Assembly: GCF_001424485.1 (NCBI RefSeq)
Contig: NZ_LMQC01000019.1
Span: forward strand, 248,001 to 312,000
Direction of reading: 5' to 3'
Length of the DNA stretch: 64,000 bases
Source of the DNA: Modestobacter sp. Leaf380
GTDB taxonomy: Bacteria > Actinomycetota > Actinomycetes > Mycobacteriales > Geodermatophilaceae
Part shown: positions 8,520 through 62,506 of the stretch, piece by piece
Layout of the letters: each line of letters starts with the position of its first letter
How positions within the stretch are numbered: the first letter of the stretch is position 1
Made by a program: the position numbers and the translations under genes
The notes under the pieces: model-generated
What the model saw: the letters and a program-made list of their open reading frames with translations, nothing else
Told to the model about the DNA's origin: nothing
Databases searched by the model: none

Positions 8520-8582
8520 TTCGCTGCGGGCACCGTCGGTGACGGCGTCACCCGGCCACTCCCTCTGTCGCGGTCATCTCCG

Positions 8583-8620
8583 GGAAACGCTTTCGGTGTT
8601 GCACAGGTCACTGCTAGGTT
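8583..8620 (+). promoter_or_regulatory. LacI-type operator and promoter for the giant secreted protein
   Basis: GGAAACGCTTTCGG at 8583-8596 is a copy of the locus-wide GAAAACGNTTTCGG site. Its right half overlaps a possible -35 (TTTCGG, 8591-8596). An extended -10 box, TGC-TAGGTT (TAGGTT at 8615-8620), lies 18 bp on. The start codon is at 8680. Confidence 0.6.
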
Positions 8621-17664: not shown

Positions 17665-18654
17665 TCAGCCCAGGGTGGACTCGCGCAGCACCAGCCGGGT
17701 CGGCAGCCGCTGCACGCCCGCGCGCGGAGTGCCTTGGACCGCCTCCAGCAGCGCCCGCGCGGCGGTCTGGCCGACGGCCTCCAGGTCGGGGTCGATGCTG
17801 GTCAGCGGCGGGCGCGACCCGGTGGTCATCGCCTCCCAGTTGTCGTACCCGACGACGGCGACGTCCTGCGGGATGCGCAGACCCCGGTCGCGCAGGGCGT
17901 CGGTGACGCCGCGGGCGATGGCGTCGCTGCCGCAGAAGACCGCGTCGACCTCCCCGGCACGCAGCACCATGTCGGTGGCGACGCGGCCCCACTGCTCGGT
18001 CCAGTCGCCCAGCAGCGGCCCGGGAGGGACCAGCTGCAGCCCCTGGGCGGTGAGGGTGCGCTCGACGGCGGCCGCGCGGCGGCGGGTCGCGGCGAAGTCC
18101 ACCGGGCCGGTGACGTGGGCGATCCGGCGGCGGCCCAGGGCCAGCAGGTGCTCCACCGCGGTCGCCGCCCCGGCGTCCTCGTCGGGGACCACGGAGAAGT
18201 CGGCCGGGTCGGTGGAGGCGCCGTAGGCGTAGACCACCGGGACCCCGATGTCACCCAGCGAGGGCTGGTCGTCGGTGGTGGAGGCCAGCGTGATCAGCCC
18301 GTCGATGCCGTGCTCGAGCAGGGTGTGCAGGTGGTGCCGCTTGCGGATGTCGTCCCCACGGGAGTCGCACAGCAGCACGGACATGCCCTCCGCGCCGACC
18401 GCGTCGCCGGCACCCAGCAGGACCGGGGTGCTGAACCGACCGACGCTGTCGCTGGTGAGCATCCCGACCGTGCGGGAGTACCCGCTGCGCAGCCGCCGGG
18501 CGTTCCCGTTGGGCCGGTAGCCCATCTCCGCGGCCAGTGCCCGCAGGCGGTCCCGGGTGGCCATGCTGACGTCGTTGCTGGACCCCAGGGCCTTCGACAC
18601 GGTCCCGACCGACACCCCTGCGGCCTGGGCGACGTCGCTGAGCCGGACGCTCAC
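17665..18654 (-). CDS. LacI-family transcriptional regulator (glycan locus, copy 1)
   Basis: A full-length 329-residue LacI/GalR regulator. The N-terminal HTH reads D-V-A-Q-A-A-G-V-S-V-G-T-V-S-K, and the hinge is M-G-Y-R-P-N-G-N-A-R-R-L. A periplasmic-binding-protein-like sugar-sensing domain follows, with D-A-V-F-C-G-S-D and V-V-G-Y-D-N-W-E motifs. It is the last gene of the arabinoside-importer operon, 66 bp after the HTH-epimerase fusion. It closely resembles the LacI protein at 26534-27568 (shared G-R-F-S-T/I-P-V and M-S-V-L-L-C-D blocks), so the two are paralogues. The target may be the GAAAACGNTTTCGG-type sites of this locus; which paralogue binds them is not known. Confidence 0.9.
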   Translation of the reverse strand: MSVRLSDVAQAAGVSVGTVSKALGSSNDVSMATRDRLRALAAEMGYRPNGNARRLRSGYSRTVGMLTSDSVGRFSTPVLLGAGDAVGAEGMSVLLCDSRGDDIRKRHHLHTLLEHGIDGLITLASTTDDQPSLGDIGVPVVYAYGASTDPADFSVVPDEDAGAATAVEHLLALGRRRIAHVTGPVDFAATRRRAAAVERTLTAQGLQLVPPGPLLGDWTEQWGRVATDMVLRAGEVDAVFCGSDAIARGVTDALRDRGLRIPQDVAVVGYDNWEAMTTGSRPPLTSIDPDLEAVGQTAARALLEAVQGTPRAGVQRLPTRLVLRESTLG

Positions 18655-18720: not shown

Positions 18721-19962
18721 TCAGCGACCGGGGACATGGTCCCGCCAGGTGTGGGCCGGCACCCAGCCCAGCACCCGCCGCGCCTTCTCGGTGCTCATCA
18801 GGGCGGTGTGCTGACCCAGCTCGCAGTGCACGGGGACACCGGGGAACTCCAGGGCAGCGAGCTCCGCGGTGGGCCGGCTCATCACGGTGTCGCCGTTGGC
18901 GATGACGAACACGTCGGCGCCGCGGTCGGGGTGCCGCAGCCCGGCCGAGATCGCGCGGGCGGCGTCCCGGGCGTCGATGTAGCTCCAGCCGTTCCAGCGG
19001 CGCAGCGCCGCGTCGGCGTCGAAGGAGGGGAAGGCCGCGTAGTCCTCGACGGCCATCACGTTGGACAGCCGCAGCCCGACCAACTTCATCTCCGGGCACC
19101 ACCGGGCGAACTGCCGGGCCATCTCCTCCTCGAGGGTCTTGGACAGCGAGTACGAGGTGGTGGGGGTCGGCCCGGTCTCCTCGTCCAGCGGGAACGAGGG
19201 CGGCGGCACGTCCAGCGGCAGCCCCAGGACGGTCTCGCTGGAGGCCCACACGACCTCGGTGATGCCCACCCGGCGCGCGGCGGCGAAGACGTTGTAGGTC
19301 GTCGTGATGTTGGTGGCGAACAGGGTGGCGTCGGGCAGCAGCCCGGGCGCGGGGATCGCCGCCAGGTGCACGACGGCGTCCGGGCGCTCCCAGCGGTCGT
19401 CGATCCCGGACAGCACCTCCAGCGCCTGGCCGGGGTCGGTCAGGTCCGCCCGGGTCCACGGGACGTCGGGCCGGTGCGGGGCCACCAGGTCCACGACGAC
19501 GACCCGGTGGCCCTCGGCGAGCAGGTGGTCCACCGTGGCCCGTCCGAGCTTGCCGCTGCCGCCGGTGACCAGCACCAGCGACGACGGTCGGGTCCCCCCG
19601 GCCGAGGCGTCGTCGCCAGCCCCGGCCGGGGTGGTCTCGTCGACGTCCGCGGTCCCGTCGAGGGACGCGGGGGTCGGACCGGGCGCGGCCGACACCAGCA
19701 CCGGTCGCACCGCGCCCGGGTTCTCTGCGCCCGGGGTCTCCGCGCCCGGGGTCTCCGGGACCGTCCGTCGTCGGCTCAGCGACTGGGCCGCCTCGTTGGG
19801 TGACCACCCGAGCACCTCGATCGCGGCCAGCACCCGGGCGCGGGTGCTGGCCCGGACCGGACCGGAGGCGTTGATGACCCGGGAGACCGTCTGGTAGGAC
19901 ACCCCGGCCTCCCGGGCGACGTCGGTGATCACGGGGAGGTCACCGTGCTGCGCGGCGGTCAC
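18721..19962 (-). CDS. LacI-type HTH fused to NAD(P)-dependent epimerase/dehydratase
   Basis: A 413-residue single reading frame. Residues 11-66 are a complete LacI DNA-binding unit: the HTH (D-V-A-R-E-A-G-V-S-Y-Q-T-V-S-R-V-I-N) and hinge helix (L-G-W-S-P-N-E-A-A-Q-S-L). A Pro/Ala/Gly-rich linker (about 68-128) with a short repeat follows. Residues 129-413 form an extended SDR: V-T-G-G-S-G-K-L-G cofactor loop, the serine in W-A-S-S-E-T and the Y-S-L-S-K catalytic pair. The SDR part resembles UDP-sugar epimerases and uronate dehydrogenases. It replaces the usual LacI sensor domain. The GTG start lies 4 bp after the ABC ATPase stop, so it belongs to the sugar-import operon. No stop or frameshift separates the halves. 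It could be an NAD- or sugar-sensing regulator, or an enzyme that also binds DNA. Confidence 0.85.
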   Translation of the reverse strand: MTAAQHGDLPVITDVAREAGVSYQTVSRVINASGPVRASTRARVLAAIEVLGWSPNEAAQSLSRRRTVPETPGAETPGAENPGAVRPVLVSAAPGPTPASLDGTADVDETTPAGAGDDASAGGTRPSSLVLVTGGSGKLGRATVDHLLAEGHRVVVVDLVAPHRPDVPWTRADLTDPGQALEVLSGIDDRWERPDAVVHLAAIPAPGLLPDATLFATNITTTYNVFAAARRVGITEVVWASSETVLGLPLDVPPPSFPLDEETGPTPTTSYSLSKTLEEEMARQFARWCPEMKLVGLRLSNVMAVEDYAAFPSFDADAALRRWNGWSYIDARDAARAISAGLRHPDRGADVFVIANGDTVMSRPTAELAALEFPGVPVHCELGQHTALMSTEKARRVLGWVPAHTWRDHVPGR

Positions 19963-19966
19963 CGGG

Positions 19967-21040
<1,074 letters not shown>

Positions 21041-21041
21041 G

Positions 21042-23027
21042 TCAGGCCTCCTGGGGGGTCGTGGTGGCGGGAGCGGTGGTGGAGGCCGCGGGCAGGAAGA
21101 CGCGCATGGTCGTGGGACCGCGCTCGGCCCAGTCCGCGTAGGGGGCCAGGCGGACCGGCTGCGTCGGGGTCGACGCGGCGGGCGCCGGCTCCCCGGGCGT
21201 CCCGTAGGGCCAGGCGGCGTCGGCGTGCGGCCGCAGCCAGCCCTGCACCTGGACCTCGCCGTCGACCTCCACCGGGGGCTGGGAGGTGTCCACGACGAGC
21301 TCGTCGACGTGCACCCGGCCCGGCAGGTCGACGGACTCCACGCAGAGGACCTGCGGCCCGCGCTCGACGGCCACGGTGCCCCGGACGGCGTCGATCCGGC
21401 CGTCGGCCACGGTGAACCGCGGGGCGACCGGCAGGTCGAGGCGGACGACGTCCCCGGCGGCGAACACCCGGGTGACCGCAGCCGACCCCGGCGCCACCGG
21501 GGAGGTGGTGCCGCCGTCGGACAGCGTCGCGCCCACGGCCCAGGACGGCACCCGCAGGGTGAGCGTCACCGGGGTGCCCGGGGCCTCGTCGACGACGACC
21601 TCGACCCGACCGCTGCGCGGGTAGTCGGTGACCACCCGGACGGCCATGCGCCGGTCACCGGGCAGGTCGGCGGTGAGGGTGGCCGGGGCGTACTGGTGGA
21701 CCTGCACGCCCTCGTCGTCGGTGGTGGCCAGCAGGGTCTGCAGGCTGGCGAAGGTGCGGGCCACGTTGGTCGGGCAGCAGGACACCGCGAACCAGGGGGC
21801 ACGCAGCGAGGAGGCCGCGCGGGGCACCGCCTGGTCGGGGTCCGGGACGGTGCCCAGGACCCGCTGGTGCAGCGTGTTCGTGTAGAAGAACGCGGTGCCC
21901 GAGGCCGAGGGACCGGCGTCCACGACGTTGTAGAGGGTGCGCTCGATCAGGTCGGCGTAGCGGGGGTCGCCCTGGGCCAGCAGCAGGCGCCAGGCCAGCT
22001 GGACCGAGCCGATGCCTGCGCACGTCTCGGAGTACGCCCGGTCCGGGGGAAGCACGAAGTCCTCGCCGAACGCCTCGTCCTGGTGCCGGGAGCCCATGCC
22101 ACCGGTCAGGTAGGTGCGGCGGGCGACGGTCGCGTCCCACTGCCGCACGACGGCGGCCAGCAGCTCGTCGTCACCGGTCTCGACGGCGAGGTCGACGGCA
22201 CCCGAGGAGAGGTAGGTGGCGCGCACGGCGTGCCCGCGCAGCACCTCGGCGTCCCGGATCGGCTCATCGTCCTGGAAGTAGGAGCGACCGAACTCGATCT
22301 CGGAGAGCACCTGGTGGCCGCGGCGTTCCAGGAAGAGCCGGGCCTGCTCCAGGTAGCGACGCTCACCGGTGACCCGGTAGAGCTCCACCAGCGCCGGCTC
22401 GATCTCCGGGTGCCCGCAGACCGACTCGATGCCGCCGGGTCCGAAGACGTCGCACACCAGGTCGGCGGCGCGGGTGCACACCTGCAGCAGCAGGTCCGGG
22501 CCGGCCGTCCGGGCCCGGGCGACACCGGCCTGGAACAGGTGGCCCAGGCAGTAGAGCTCGTGGCCCCACTCCAGGTCGGTCCACCGGTCGGGGGTGCCCG
22601 GGCGCCCGAAGGCGGTGCTGAGGTACCCGTCGGGGGCCTGCGCGGCCGCGACCCGGGCGACGATCGCCTGCAGTCGCGCGTCGAGCTCGGCGTCACCGGT
22701 GCGGCCGTGCTCCCAGGCCATCGCCTCGAGGAGCTTGTAGGTCTCGCTGTCGGCGAACTCGCGGCCGGCCCGGTCGGCGCCGGAGGCACCGGCGGCGGTG
22801 GCGTCGAAGTTGCCCAGCCAGCCCTCGCGCTCGAGCCAGTGCTCGACGTGGGCCAGCGTGGCATCCGCGTTGACGTCCTGCCGCCGGCCCCAGGGGCCGC
22901 CGGTCACCGCGACCTGGTCCAGGCGCAACGGCTGCAGCGTGCCGCGGGAGGGGGCCACCGGTCCGCGGGCGGACGGCGTCCGGACGACGTCGTCCGATGT
23001 GGTCGTGGAAGTGAGGGTCACGGTCAT
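21042..23027 (-). CDS. GH127 beta-L-arabinofuranosidase (cytoplasmic)
   Basis: A 661-residue (alpha/alpha)6-barrel glycosidase followed by beta-sandwiches. The GH127 zinc/cysteine site is intact: E334-T-C336 and C417-C418-P, matching Glu338, Cys340, Cys417 and Cys418 of Bifidobacterium longum HypBA1. In that enzyme Cys417 is the nucleophile and the set binds zinc. The T-G-G-M-G-S-R-H block is also typical. HypBA1-type enzymes release L-arabinose from beta-L-arabinofuranosides of hydroxyproline-rich plant glycoproteins. No signal peptide is seen, so it acts on imported sugars. The ATG overlaps the permease stop by 4 bp (ATGA) and the gene sits inside the ABC importer operon. Confidence 0.92.
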   Translation of the reverse strand: MTVTLTSTTTSDDVVRTPSARGPVAPSRGTLQPLRLDQVAVTGGPWGRRQDVNADATLAHVEHWLEREGWLGNFDATAAGASGADRAGREFADSETYKLLEAMAWEHGRTGDAELDARLQAIVARVAAAQAPDGYLSTAFGRPGTPDRWTDLEWGHELYCLGHLFQAGVARARTAGPDLLLQVCTRAADLVCDVFGPGGIESVCGHPEIEPALVELYRVTGERRYLEQARLFLERRGHQVLSEIEFGRSYFQDDEPIRDAEVLRGHAVRATYLSSGAVDLAVETGDDELLAAVVRQWDATVARRTYLTGGMGSRHQDEAFGEDFVLPPDRAYSETCAGIGSVQLAWRLLLAQGDPRYADLIERTLYNVVDAGPSASGTAFFYTNTLHQRVLGTVPDPDQAVPRAASSLRAPWFAVSCCPTNVARTFASLQTLLATTDDEGVQVHQYAPATLTADLPGDRRMAVRVVTDYPRSGRVEVVVDEAPGTPVTLTLRVPSWAVGATLSDGGTTSPVAPGSAAVTRVFAAGDVVRLDLPVAPRFTVADGRIDAVRGTVAVERGPQVLCVESVDLPGRVHVDELVVDTSQPPVEVDGEVQVQGWLRPHADAAWPYGTPGEPAPAASTPTQPVRLAPYADWAERGPTTMRVFLPAASTTAPATTTPQEA

Positions 23028-23941
23028 CCCTTGAGTGCGCCGGACATGAAGCCGCGCACGTAGTGGCGCTGCAGGAGGAGGAAGATCAGGACGCAGGGCA
23101 GCGCGAGGACGACGACGCCGGCCTCGGTGGCGCCGTAGTCGACGATGCCCATGGTCTGGCCGCGCAGGTTGGCGACTGCCAGCGGCAGCGGCACCTTGGT
23201 GGAGTCGGAGATCAGGATCAGCGGGGTGATGAAGTCGTTCCAGGCCGCGAGGAACGCGAAGATCCCCACGGTGATCAGGCCGGGCCGGACGGCGGGCAGG
23301 AGCACCCGGACGAGGGCGGTGAAGCTCCCGCAGCCGTCGACGAGGGCCGCCTCCTCCAGCTCCTTGGGCACGGCCTCGAAGGAGATCCGCATCATGAAGG
23401 TGGCGAAGGGGAGCTGGAACATCGTCAGCACCAGCGCCAGGCCGACCAGCGAGTTCTGCATGCCCAGGTCGTTGAGCAGCACGTAGAGCGGGATCAGCAG
23501 GGTCGCGTAGGGGACCATGAGGATCGCCAGCGTGCCCAGGAAGAGCAGGTTCTTGCCGGGGAACTGGAAGCGGGCGAAGGCGTAACCGCCCAGCAGCGAG
23601 ACCCCGACGGTGAGCAGCACGGTGAGCACCGAGACGATCGTGGAGTTGAGCAGGTACTGCCCGATGCCCGCCTGGTAGTTGGCCAGCGTCTCGTAGTTGG
23701 CGAAGCCGTAGCCGTCGGTCTGCGCGGTGCCGCCCTGCGGGGAGACCGAGGAGACGGCGGCCCACAGCATCGGGAAGAGGAACAGCAGCGCGAGCCCACC
23801 GGTGAAGGTCCGCTGGCCCATGCTGGCCAGCGAGGCCGAGGGACGTCGGGGGCGCCGGCCCATGCTGGCGGTGGTGGGGGTGGCGGCCGGGTCGGCGCCG
23901 TCGGTCAACGGCGCGGCAGAGGCCACGGGTGTGGTGGTCAT
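23024..23941 (-). CDS. CUT1 sugar ABC transporter permease, MalG type
   Basis: A 305-residue inner-membrane permease with six membrane helices after a Pro/Ala/Thr-rich N-terminal tail. The cytoplasmic EAA loop (E-L-E-E-A-A-L-V-D-G-C-G) that docks with the ATPase is present. It pairs with the MalF-type permease upstream (ATGA overlap) and is coupled to GH127 downstream (ATGA overlap). It likely forms the channel for arabinose-containing oligosaccharides. Confidence 0.92.
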   Translation of the reverse strand: MTTTPVASAAPLTDGADPAATPTTASMGRRPRRPSASLASMGQRTFTGGLALLFLFPMLWAAVSSVSPQGGTAQTDGYGFANYETLANYQAGIGQYLLNSTIVSVLTVLLTVGVSLLGGYAFARFQFPGKNLLFLGTLAILMVPYATLLIPLYVLLNDLGMQNSLVGLALVLTMFQLPFATFMMRISFEAVPKELEEAALVDGCGSFTALVRVLLPAVRPGLITVGIFAFLAAWNDFITPLILISDSTKVPLPLAVANLRGQTMGIVDYGATEAGVVVLALPCVLIFLLLQRHYVRGFMSGALKG

Positions 23942-24897
23942 GCGTCCTTGTCCCCTCGCAGACCGAGGAACTGGACGGCGTTGAGCACGATGAGCCCGCC
24001 CAGCACGACGATCGACAGGGCCGCGGCGCGGCCCAGGTCGTTGGAGCCCTGGAAGGCCATGGAGTAGACGAGCTGGACGATGGTGACCGTGCTGTTGTCC
24101 GGCCCGCCCTTCGTCAGGATGTAGAACTGGTCGAAGGCCAGCAGCGAGCCCGTGACGCACAGGATCGTGCAGAGCGCCAGCGAGGGCTTGAGCAGCGGCA
24201 GGGTGATGCGGCGGAAGGTCTGCAGCGCGCTGGCGCCGTCGAGGCGGGCGGCCTCGTAGACGTCGCCGGGGATCGACTGGAGCCCCACGAGCAGCAGCAG
24301 CATGTAGAAGCCGGCGAAGCGCCAGACCACCAGCGCGACGGTCGACCACAGCGCGCGGTCCGGGCTGCCCAGGAAGGACACCGGGTCCTCGCTGATCCCG
24401 GTCCACTCCAGCACGGCGTTGAACGGGCTGGCCTGCGGTGAGTACAGCGCGTAGAACAGCAGCGACGCCGAGGCCAGGCCCAGCGCGCTGGGCACCAGGA
24501 ACGAGGTCCGCACGAAGGCCGACCAGCGGCCGGACTCCTGGACGACCAGGGCCATCGCCAGCGCCAGGCCCAGCAGGATCACGGTCGTCACGACCGTGTA
24601 CTTCAGGGTGAACCAGACCGCCGGCCAGAAGAGCCGGTCGTCGAGGGCCTTGGTGAAGTTCTCGGGCGCGTTGAGCCCCAGGTCCCCCGTGAACAGGCCC
24701 CAGTCCGAGACCGACATCCGGAACACCAGGATGACCGGGACGACGAAGAAGACGATGAGGAACAGCGCGGTCGGGGCGGCGTAGAGCGCGCCCTGACGTC
24801 GTCGCGCACGGGCCCGGCGGGTGACGCGCGGGCGCACGGCCGGACGGCGGGGACCGTCCTCCGTGGGGGGAGGGGCCGTGCTGTGGGTGGTCGCCAT
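23938..24897 (-). CDS. CUT1 sugar ABC transporter permease, MalF type
   Basis: A 319-residue permease with an Arg-rich N-terminal tail, six membrane helices and the EAA loop (V-Y-E-A-A-R-L-D-G-A-S). The ATG at 24897 has GAGGAG upstream. It is the first permease gene after the binding-protein gene and is translationally coupled to the MalG-type permease. With the 19967 ATPase and the 24978 lipoprotein it makes a complete CUT1 importer. Confidence 0.92.
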   Translation of the reverse strand: MATTHSTAPPPTEDGPRRPAVRPRVTRRARARRRQGALYAAPTALFLIVFFVVPVILVFRMSVSDWGLFTGDLGLNAPENFTKALDDRLFWPAVWFTLKYTVVTTVILLGLALAMALVVQESGRWSAFVRTSFLVPSALGLASASLLFYALYSPQASPFNAVLEWTGISEDPVSFLGSPDRALWSTVALVVWRFAGFYMLLLLVGLQSIPGDVYEAARLDGASALQTFRRITLPLLKPSLALCTILCVTGSLLAFDQFYILTKGGPDNSTVTIVQLVYSMAFQGSNDLGRAAALSIVVLGGLIVLNAVQFLGLRGDKDA

Positions 24898-24977: not shown

Positions 24978-26285
24978 CTACTGCTGGAGTGCCTCGGTGA
25001 TGGCCTCGTTGTCGGCCTCGAGGGTGGAGGCGTCGCCGAAGACCTGGTTGCGGAACAAGGTGCTCCACGGGCTGCCGACGGCGTTGAAGGCCTGCTGGAA
25101 GTTCAGCGCGATCGGGGTCTGGCTGTCAGCGGCGGTCGAGACCTCGTTGATCAGCTGGACCCGGGGGTCGGTCGCGTAGGAGTTGTCCAGGAAGTCCGCG
25201 CGGGCCGGGGTCACGTTGTTCGCGGCCAGCACCTCGACCTGTGCGTCCTCGCTCATCAGCCACTGCATGAAGTTCCAGGCCTGGTCGGGCGTGTCGGAGT
25301 CCTTGCTGATGCCCAGGCCGTCACCACCGACGAAGGTCGAGGTGCCACCGTCGATCCCGGGGATGGCGGTCACGCCGACGTCCACGGTCTCGTCGGCGGT
25401 CTGCAGCAGGGTGGCCGGGTACGGCATGACGCCGATCTGGCCCTCCTGGAACGCGGCGGTCCAGGTCGCACCGGTCTCGTCGGCGGCGCCGGGCGCGATG
25501 GCGCCGGCGTCCTCGAGGTCGCGCCAGATGCCGTACACGTCCTGCGCGGTGTCGCTGGCCAGGTTGGCCGTGGTGCCGTCGTCCTCGAGGACCTCCTCGC
25601 CACTGGCCCAGAGCATCGGGAACCAGGTGAAGACGCCGCAGCCGCCGCAGTTGCCACCGAAGTAGGTGCCGTAGGTGTCGGGCTTGTTCAGCGCCTGCAC
25701 GGCCAGCGCCTGGTCACGGAACTCGGTGAGGGTCGTGGGGCCCTGCTCGGGGTCCAGACCGGCCTCGCGGTAGAGGTCCTTGTTGTAGAACATGACCGAG
25801 AGGTCCAGCACGAAGGGCAGCACGTACTGCTGGTCCTCGTAGGTGCCGGCGTCCAGGACGGCGGGGTTGATCTGGTCGGCGTAGTCCAGGTTGCCGATGC
25901 GCTCGGTGATGTCGCTGAACAGGCCCGCGGAGGTCCAGTTCGGCAGGTAGACGACGTCGGCGGCGAACAGGTCGGGCAGGTCGCCGGAACCGGCGGCCGC
26001 GCCGACCTTGGCGACGTAGTCGTCGTTGGGGACGACGGTCAGCTCGACCTGGTTGTCGTGGCTGGCGTTGTAGGCGTCGACCAGCAGGTTGGCCTGGGCC
26101 TCCAGCGGGGCGCGCGTCCAGAGCGTGAGGGTGGTGCCGTCGTCGACGCCCTCCACGTTGGAGGCGTCACCGGTGGCGGCGGGCCCGTCCGAGCCACCTC
26201 CACAGGCGCCCAGTGCTGCGGTCATGGTGGCCACAGCGAGCGCTGCGGCAACCCGGGTGGTGCGGCGGCGTGGTGTCCACGTCAT
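24978..26285 (-). CDS. Sugar-binding lipoprotein of CUT1 ABC importer
   Basis: A 435-residue extracellular solute-binding protein, family 1. The signal peptide ends in lipobox L-G-A-C, followed by a Gly/Ser/Asp linker. Two-lobe SBP motifs include L-T-L-W-T-R-A-P near the N terminus and the W-F-P-M-L-W-A-S segment typical of oligosaccharide binders. An unusual N-C-G-G-C-G pair of cysteines at about residue 213 may form a surface disulfide. It is the first gene of the importer/GH127/fusion operon. The promoter region carries two GAAAACGNTTTCGG-like sites shared with the divergent LacI gene. Confidence 0.92.
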   Translation of the reverse strand: MTWTPRRRTTRVAAALAVATMTAALGACGGGSDGPAATGDASNVEGVDDGTTLTLWTRAPLEAQANLLVDAYNASHDNQVELTVVPNDDYVAKVGAAAGSGDLPDLFAADVVYLPNWTSAGLFSDITERIGNLDYADQINPAVLDAGTYEDQQYVLPFVLDLSVMFYNKDLYREAGLDPEQGPTTLTEFRDQALAVQALNKPDTYGTYFGGNCGGCGVFTWFPMLWASGEEVLEDDGTTANLASDTAQDVYGIWRDLEDAGAIAPGAADETGATWTAAFQEGQIGVMPYPATLLQTADETVDVGVTAIPGIDGGTSTFVGGDGLGISKDSDTPDQAWNFMQWLMSEDAQVEVLAANNVTPARADFLDNSYATDPRVQLINEVSTAADSQTPIALNFQQAFNAVGSPWSTLFRNQVFGDASTLEADNEAITEALQQ

Positions 26286-26349: not shown

Positions 26350-26433
26350 ACGAGCATGGCGCCCCAGGCGGTCGGGATCGAGCTGCCCTGTTGGTACAAG
26401 ACCCCTCGACGCCGCGCTCGTGATCCACGTCGC

Positions 26434-26447
26434 TAAAACGTTTTCGG
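26434..26447. promoter_or_regulatory. LacI-type operator, regulator side
   Basis: TAAAACGTTTTCGG with a perfect AAAACGTTTT core (26435-26444), 87 bp before the LacI start and 98 bp from the sister site. This is the most symmetrical copy. A TAGAGT hexamer at 26488-26493 is a possible -10 box for the regulator gene. The rest of 26286-26533 shows nothing further. Confidence 0.65.
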
Positions 26448-62156: not shown

Positions 62157-62173
62157 TATTGTGAGCGTTAACA
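62157..62173 (+). promoter_or_regulatory. lac-like operator over the -10 of the IIB-like gene
   Basis: TATTGT (62157-62162) is a -10 candidate. TGTGAGCGTTAACA (62160-62173) is a LacI-family operator with a central CG whose left half, TTGTGAGCG, equals the E. coli lac operator half-site. The gene starts at 62201. Confidence 0.55.
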
Positions 62174-62200: not shown

Positions 62201-62506
62201 ATGCCGAGCATCGACGGCTCCGCCGTCCGCAAGCTGGTCATCGCCTGTGACGCGGGGATGGCCAGCAGCGTGCTGATGAGCACCCAGCTCCGCAAGCACC
62301 TGGCCCCCCGGGTGCTGGTCACCCACAGCCCGGTCGACGCCCTCCCGGCCGACGCCGACGTCGTGCTCACCCACGACAAGCTGGCCGCCCGCGCCCGGCT
62401 GGCCGCCGGCGACCGGCCGGTCGTCGCCTACGACAAGCTCATCGGCGACCCCGCCGTCGCCGACCTGGTCCGCGCCATCCGCGAGGGCGAGCTCATCCAG
62501 GCCTGA
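62201..62506 (+). CDS. Orphan PTS EIIB-like protein
   Basis: A 101-residue protein with the P-loop-like active site of mannitol/lactose-type IIB domains: K-L-V-I-A-C-D-A-G-M-A-S-S-V-L-M-S, the Cys being the phosphorylated residue, then the alternating fold ending in a helix. No EIIC, EIIA or HPr gene is near, so it may work with proteins elsewhere or serve a regulatory role. ATG 62201 is preceded by TTGGAG about 12 nt upstream. A lac-like operator covers its promoter. It is followed 3 bp later by an SRPBCC gene. Confidence 0.8.
   Translation: MPSIDGSAVRKLVIACDAGMASSVLMSTQLRKHLAPRVLVTHSPVDALPADADVVLTHDKLAARARLAAGDRPVVAYDKLIGDPAVADLVRAIREGELIQA

Follow-up and report, generated by a model that had tools for sequence, protein, structure and literature searches.

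We find that a protein joining a LacI-type DNA-binding head to an extended SDR enzyme domain is real and conserved, not an artefact, and that it is rare, being conserved in part of one genus. Its gene occupies positions 18721..19962 on the minus strand of a 64,000-nucleotide stretch of the Modestobacter sp. Leaf380 genome (contig NZ_LMQC01000019.1; hereafter the window) and encodes, from a GTG start, 413 aa laid out as a LacI-type HTH, a linker and an extended SDR. Because an apparently intact SDR is joined to a LacI head within a sugar-uptake cluster, the enzyme itself may sense food and control genes; a function as a regulator is likely. The original prediction, made from the letters of the window, is as a whole partly supported.

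Domain layout of the fusion protein

The reading frame is open from end to end, and the linker, where the original prediction had allowed for a stop or frameshift, contains neither. Both halves score over their Pfam cut-offs: PF00356 (LacI) matches residues 12-56 with 61 bits against a cut-off of 27, and PF01370 (Epimerase) matches residues 130-355 with 95.7 bits against a cut-off of 20.9, covering the whole profile. The reading of the gene as HTH, linker and SDR in one frame is thereby confirmed.

The HTH and hinge helix were placed at residues 10-66 (19765..19935, minus strand) by Pfam, by a match to the lac repressor and by modelled helices. The closest solved structure for this part is the DNA-binding domain of the lac repressor (1l1m, E 2.6e-11), and the stretch GVSYQTVSRV is identical in the window fusion, the lac repressor and the fusion of Klenkia marina; a third fusion, in the Klenkia genome G004, has GVSRQTVSRV there. 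An AlphaFold2 model was built from a 60-row alignment (mean pLDDT 81.5; a structure run without an alignment gave a mean of 42.6). This alignment omits 22 HTH rows and 21 SDR rows of an earlier one of 103 rows, in which HTH fragments were judged misplaced from identities of 10-25% and which was dropped. The model predicts HTH helices at residues 11-19, 23-31 and 38-51 (block pLDDT 91-96) and a hinge helix at 55-67 (pLDDT 77 in block 51-60 and 48 in block 61-70), so that the full HTH and hinge helix originally described are both recovered, the end of the hinge at low confidence. The linker (residues 67-128; 19579..19764, minus strand) is mostly predicted to be disordered, with pLDDT below 50 over residues 67-124. 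It is shorter in both orthologues, and 33 of its residues can be aligned with the K. marina linker and 24 with that of G004.

The SDR domain spans residues 129-413 (18724..19578, minus strand), and its fold is modelled after residue 124 with pLDDT mostly above 90. All 60 rows agree at T133, G134, G137 and G140 of the cofactor loop (TGxxGxxG, residues 133-140), at D158, which closes strand 2, and at S241, S242, Y271 and K275. Given this invariance of the catalytic residues, the active-site motif of the fusion SDR is intact, in keeping with the complete extended SDR, cofactor loop and YxxxK pair first proposed. By sequence, the closest solved structures are sugar-nucleotide epimerase/dehydratases (top 3icp, E 1.2e-12), with mostly about the first 180 residues of the SDR aligning. 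The first Foldseek match is a UDP-sugar 4-epimerase (7xpq, E 3.7e-17, 23% identity), and identities run from 20 to 28% among the 50 Foldseek rows listed. The earlier name of sugar epimerase is not established, since no NCBIfam match reaches its own cut-off among the 25 listed of 44. All three fusions carry Arg at SDR residue 336, where 50 of the 57 other rows have Gln and the four nearest solo SDRs have Ala, Ser or Gly; this change may be linked to the fusion.

The usual periplasmic-binding-protein (PBP) sensor is absent, as was originally claimed: a Pfam search at E ≤ 0.001 found no Peripla_BP domain in any of the three fusions, whereas in the same search a neighbouring, full-length ordinary LacI regulator (17665..18654, minus strand; LacI 51.9 bits) does carry Peripla_BP_3 with 122.8 bits.

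Distribution, constraint and origin

The window's genome shares its genus with K. marina. The other two fusions lie in K. marina DSM 45722 (L001:5998-7149, 383 aa) and in G004 (L048:7688-8818, 376 aa), each with both Pfam domains over cut-off, and this in-frame recurrence in two other Klenkia genomes takes the architecture beyond chance. A second, named genome collection also contains the K. marina copy. In all, three of the nine Klenkia genomes examined have the fusion, counting the window's own and one genome that is 73% complete. No fusion orthologue is present in the remaining six; five of these have only a paralogue of 41-42% identity, and the incomplete one gave no match at 1e-15. A paralogue of 40-42% identity occurs besides the fusion in each of the three fusion genomes.

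Our wider survey drew its loci from overlapping searches of 97, 112, 397 and 394 genomes (relatives, family, order and class), and its counts apply to the matches listed. Among these, 154 of 285 loci match the fusion-SDR profile at E ≤ 1e-5; an in-frame HTH match was found in 13 of the 154, which come down to three distinct places, and none in the other 141. Counted as distinct SDR stretches, there are at least 101, at least 85 of them at 150 bits or more, and three have the HTH. Homologues in relatives are therefore not always without the HTH, as the original prediction had feared, since K. marina and one more Klenkia genome have it, but all the non-Klenkia relatives examined do lack it. On plasmids, 2255 of 72,556 records match the fusion query, none across more than 80% of its length. 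A pattern scan of named genomes confirmed at least six loci, and among the matches listed only K. marina matched both parts. Rows that seemed to start within the HTH region (for instance G602, query 8-378) were considered as further fusions and rejected as alignment run-on, because no HTH lies in the SDR frame at any of the 24 doubtful places (11 and 13) among the matches listed. A search for HTH remnants upstream of solo SDRs in five related genomes gave chance-level tblastn matches (best E 0.065).

Ratios of dN/dS (Nei-Gojobori with Jukes-Cantor) between the window and K. marina fusions are 0.234 for the HTH (57 codons), 0.232 for the SDR (284) and 0.747 for the linker (33), and 0.226-0.329 for four partners in the cluster. 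As the HTH ratio is as low as that of the enzyme, the DNA-binding head has been maintained in these two genomes; the two heads are 78.9% identical and their recognition helix stretch is unchanged. Between the window and G004 the ratios are 0.852 for the HTH and 0.458 for the SDR. The first of these weighs the more because the HTH of the neighbouring ordinary LacI (LacI_A), compared between the same two genomes as a control, stands at only 0.407. It speaks against a uniform constraint and may reflect less constraint or a weaker function, another source of the HTH, or a changed specificity.

The fusion may have arisen once or twice. In an 81-row SDR tree the G004 fusion groups with four solo SDRs of another genus (support 100/96), and the three fusions are united in none of 200 bootstrap trees; a 19-row tree gives this grouping support of 84/92 and unites the fusions in 4% of bootstrap trees. 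Further, the HTHs of the two fusion lineages are not each other's nearest. Three positions are shared by the fusions alone, and four to five place G004 with the solo SDRs, these coming from 25 positions at which G004 agrees with the solo SDRs against the window and K. marina. Both the SDR tree and the HTHs hint at two fusion origins. A single fusion clade costs 8.11 log-likelihood units and is not rejected by the AU test (p 0.132), which makes one origin possible, and the overlap between the gene neighbourhoods would favour it.

Gene neighbourhood, candidate operators and short LacI proteins

In the window the cluster runs on the minus strand throughout, in the order solute-binding protein, two permeases, GH127, ATPase, fusion. 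The solute-binding protein (24978..26285; Pfam SBP_bac_1, 128.1 bits) is its first gene. It is followed by importer permeases A (23938..24837, start uncertain) and B (23024..23941), both named by sequence and synteny from the gene call and the K. marina match, then by a GH127 beta-L-arabinofuranosidase (21042..23027) with the Pfam catalytic, middle and C-terminal domains, and by an ABC importer ATPase of the MsmK/MalK type (19967..21040; ABC_tran 118.2 bits, OB_MalK 41 bits), which lies directly upstream of the fusion, 4 bases before its start. From the first permease onward no gap between adjacent genes exceeds 4 bases, and some genes overlap. Pfam thus verifies the ATPase, GH127 and solute-binding protein of the sugar importer setting noted at the outset. 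The ordinary LacI gene lies a further 66 bases on, in the same orientation, so the transcript may run on beyond the fusion.

The fusion forms the downstream end of a sugar ABC-importer cluster in all three fusion genomes. In K. marina its GTG start and the GH127 stop share four bases, with no ATPase between, and the next gene is convergent. In G004 it follows 9 bases after the permease genes of a different importer; GH127 is divergent nearby, and a convergent LacI comes after the fusion. LacI_A adjoins the fusion in both the window and G004. An FGGY-family kinase and a xylose-isomerase-like gene lie near the fusion in K. marina (by Pfam) and in G004 (by eye), as does a ROK-like gene, named by eye in both. 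In the 19 stretches around the SDR outside Klenkia, among the output listed, the SDR is unfused and stands in other neighbourhoods.

Consensus scans of the window, K. marina, G004 and the Klenkia genomes tied no site to the fusion. The importer promoter of the window holds the near-palindrome CTAAAACGTTTTCG (26433..26446, no strand), with a counterpart in K. marina (L001:618); at up to three mismatches the window has five matches to it, where 20 simulations predict 0.25. It is more likely a putative site of another LacI-type regulator of the locus, judging by the site type, which would suit other heads. One sequence with three mismatches to it, GGGAAACGCTTTCG (window 8582-8595), lies upstream of a large gene called from 8641. 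Lac-type sites were absent from the importer promoters of both the window and K. marina in these scans, and the G004 importer promoter has one with a single mismatch (L048:4445). The lac-type pattern TGTNANCGNTNACA occurs 10 times in the window's genome and three to seven times in seven others, five of them without the fusion; the reversed pattern, used as a control, gave zero matches. One of these 10, the lac-operator-like sequence TGTGAGCGTTAACA (window 62160-62173), lies a short distance upstream of a PTS-IIB-like gene (named by eye), a small one that starts at 62201. It was considered as a target of the fusion; the similar gene in G004 shows no match upstream.

Searching 60 genomes with the window HTH gave, after K. 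marina, best matches in G002 (57.2 bits), G074 (55.8) and G000 (55.3). In G002 and G000 the match is to a short gene, 133 aa long in the first and 138 aa in the second, which immediately follows an importer ATPase gene (named by eye). With the 138-aa protein as query, 112 genomes yielded first a relative in G143 that matches along nearly its whole length (70.2 bits). Next came an ordinary LacI of G002 (61.0), then the short G002 gene at 55.7 and, at 55.3 over query residues 8-100, the fusion of the window. These three mini-LacI proteins (L208:5374-5790 in G000, L209:4397-4798 in G002 and L258:6141-6557 in G143) measure 133-138 aa, consist of a LacI HTH, a hinge and a short tail, and directly follow importer/GH127 genes; Pfam found HTH models only and no sensor domain in them. 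They resemble the fusion in their close LacI HTH and their place after importer/GH127 genes, but are far shorter and have no SDR. G143, which belongs to another genus, has the K. marina order (solute-binding protein, permeases, GH127, with GH127 named by Pfam and the rest by eye) with the mini-LacI where the fusion stands. A class search of 394 genomes, at a threshold of E ≤ 1e-18, brought up more matches, whose open frames are 202-896 residues long. From a weak alignment, the mini-LacI tails may be the first unit of a former PBP sensor. Given their similar cluster position, we hypothesize a stepwise route in which loss of the sensor would have preceded gain of the SDR, as these three short genes suggest. 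In G000 another gene follows the mini-LacI on the same strand, 185 bases on, and the space between the two holds a lac-type pattern match, TGTAACCGCTTACA (L208:5250). The importer ATPase before the G002 mini-LacI (approximately L209:4795-5870) is split over two reading frames, so the G002 cluster may be decaying.

Proposed reading: an enzyme in place of the sensor

We lean, by a little, towards a one-component regulator in which an extended SDR takes the place of LacI's PBP sensor, dimerising the heads and reporting a ligand. An SDR dimer would pair two flexibly linked LacI heads and so give them a grip on a palindromic operator; NAD(H) and a sugar-derived ligand, bound or turned over by the SDR, would alter this grip. 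The SDR is probably also still an active enzyme, which would make the protein a 'trigger enzyme', and its targets would probably be the sugar-use genes of its own locus. DNA binding, dimerisation, ligand sensing, catalysis and targets are here inferred, and sensing by the SDR would be the most economical model. The regulator model draws support from the in-frame architecture in three genomes, the constraint on the HTH of the window and K. marina fusions and its identity there to the lac repressor over GVSYQTVSRV, an intact catalytic motif, the lack of a PBP domain, the tight cluster and the mini-LacI proteins in a similar position. Against it stand the failure to tie an operator to the fusion, the lac-type sites in five Klenkia genomes that lack it, the window-G004 HTH ratio, and the SDR relatives outside Klenkia that have no HTH and other neighbours.

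LacI heads normally bind DNA as dimers, and so the SDR would at least fix the oligomeric state even if the protein were a DNA-tethered or bifunctional enzyme, in which the HTH binds and the SDR catalyses with no ligand signal between them (a constitutive repressor, or an enzyme held near its genes). A linker that is long, predicted to be disordered, fast-evolving and variable in length, together with the intact catalytic residues, would fit such a protein, but a ligand-blind repressor would presumably be of little use in a catabolic cluster, and we consider this unlikely while taking it seriously.

That the HTH is the relic of a decayed LacI gene, in frame by accident, and the protein just an enzyme, seems improbable to us. 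It would accord with the 98 of 101 distinct SDR stretches without an in-frame HTH among the matches listed, with the SDR relatives examined outside Klenkia, which all stand alone, with mini-LacI genes that resemble truncated LacI in a weak alignment, and with the high HTH ratio between the window and G004. The similarity, low dN/dS and unchanged recognition helix stretch of the window and K. marina heads speak against it.

Quite improbable, too, is the production of two proteins, a separate SDR started from an internal GTG and an HTH part that is a mini-LacI or a vestige. In-frame GTGs do occur in or near the linker (residues 85, 88, 90 and 130 in the window, 79 and 102 in K. marina, 76 and 77 in G004), and relatives do have mini-LacI proteins, but no convincing ribosome-binding site was seen by eye before the internal GTGs. 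Finally, a sequencing or assembly artefact can practically be dismissed, the same in-frame architecture occurring in three genomes and the K. marina copy in a second collection.

LacI regulators are textbook one-component switches that have, as a rule, one sensor type. Like the fusion, LacI/GalR regulators such as the lac repressor, CcpA and PurR have an N-terminal HTH and hinge helix and lie beside sugar import genes; unlike them, the fusion has an SDR after a disordered linker, and no PBP-like sensor was found in it. With extended SDRs of PF01370, such as UDP-sugar 4-epimerases and uronate dehydrogenase, it shares TGxxGxxG, the Ser, YxxxK and the fold, but it differs in its DNA-binding head and in the low identities of the Foldseek rows listed. 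PutA, NadR, BirA and MocR/GabR are enzyme-regulator fusions or trigger enzymes which, like the fusion, carry a DNA-binding domain and an enzyme or enzyme-fold sensor in one chain. We know of no enzyme-regulator fusion or trigger enzyme whose head is of the LacI type or whose enzyme part is an extended SDR. Nor did we find a LacI-HTH/SDR regulator described in the open-access literature searched, where the original statement that no regulator of such design was known also held. One survey reports 3504 GalR/LacI proteins in 761 genomes with 25 companion domains, one of them enriched, and ranks the family as highly 'promiscuous'; its main text contains neither 'epimerase' nor 'dehydrogenase' (PMC5882156). 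The main text of a second paper contains neither 'epimerase' nor 'fused' (PMC4052901).

More tentatively, and with rather less confidence than doubt, we suggest a new LacI-type class in the making. The PBP sensor would have been lost first, as in the mini-LacI that ends a beta-arabinofuranoside cluster, and an active NAD-dependent sugar dehydrogenase/epimerase then joined as dimeriser and sensor, possibly twice in one genus, to give a switch that reads pathway flux or redox state. If the regulator model is true, an unrelated fold is able to drive a LacI head, in a natural and conserved swap of its sensor for an apparently catalytic SDR. The fusion would then make sensor replacement open to testing, relatives supplying a plausible intermediate, and would point to a modular way of building regulators that respond to NAD or a sugar.
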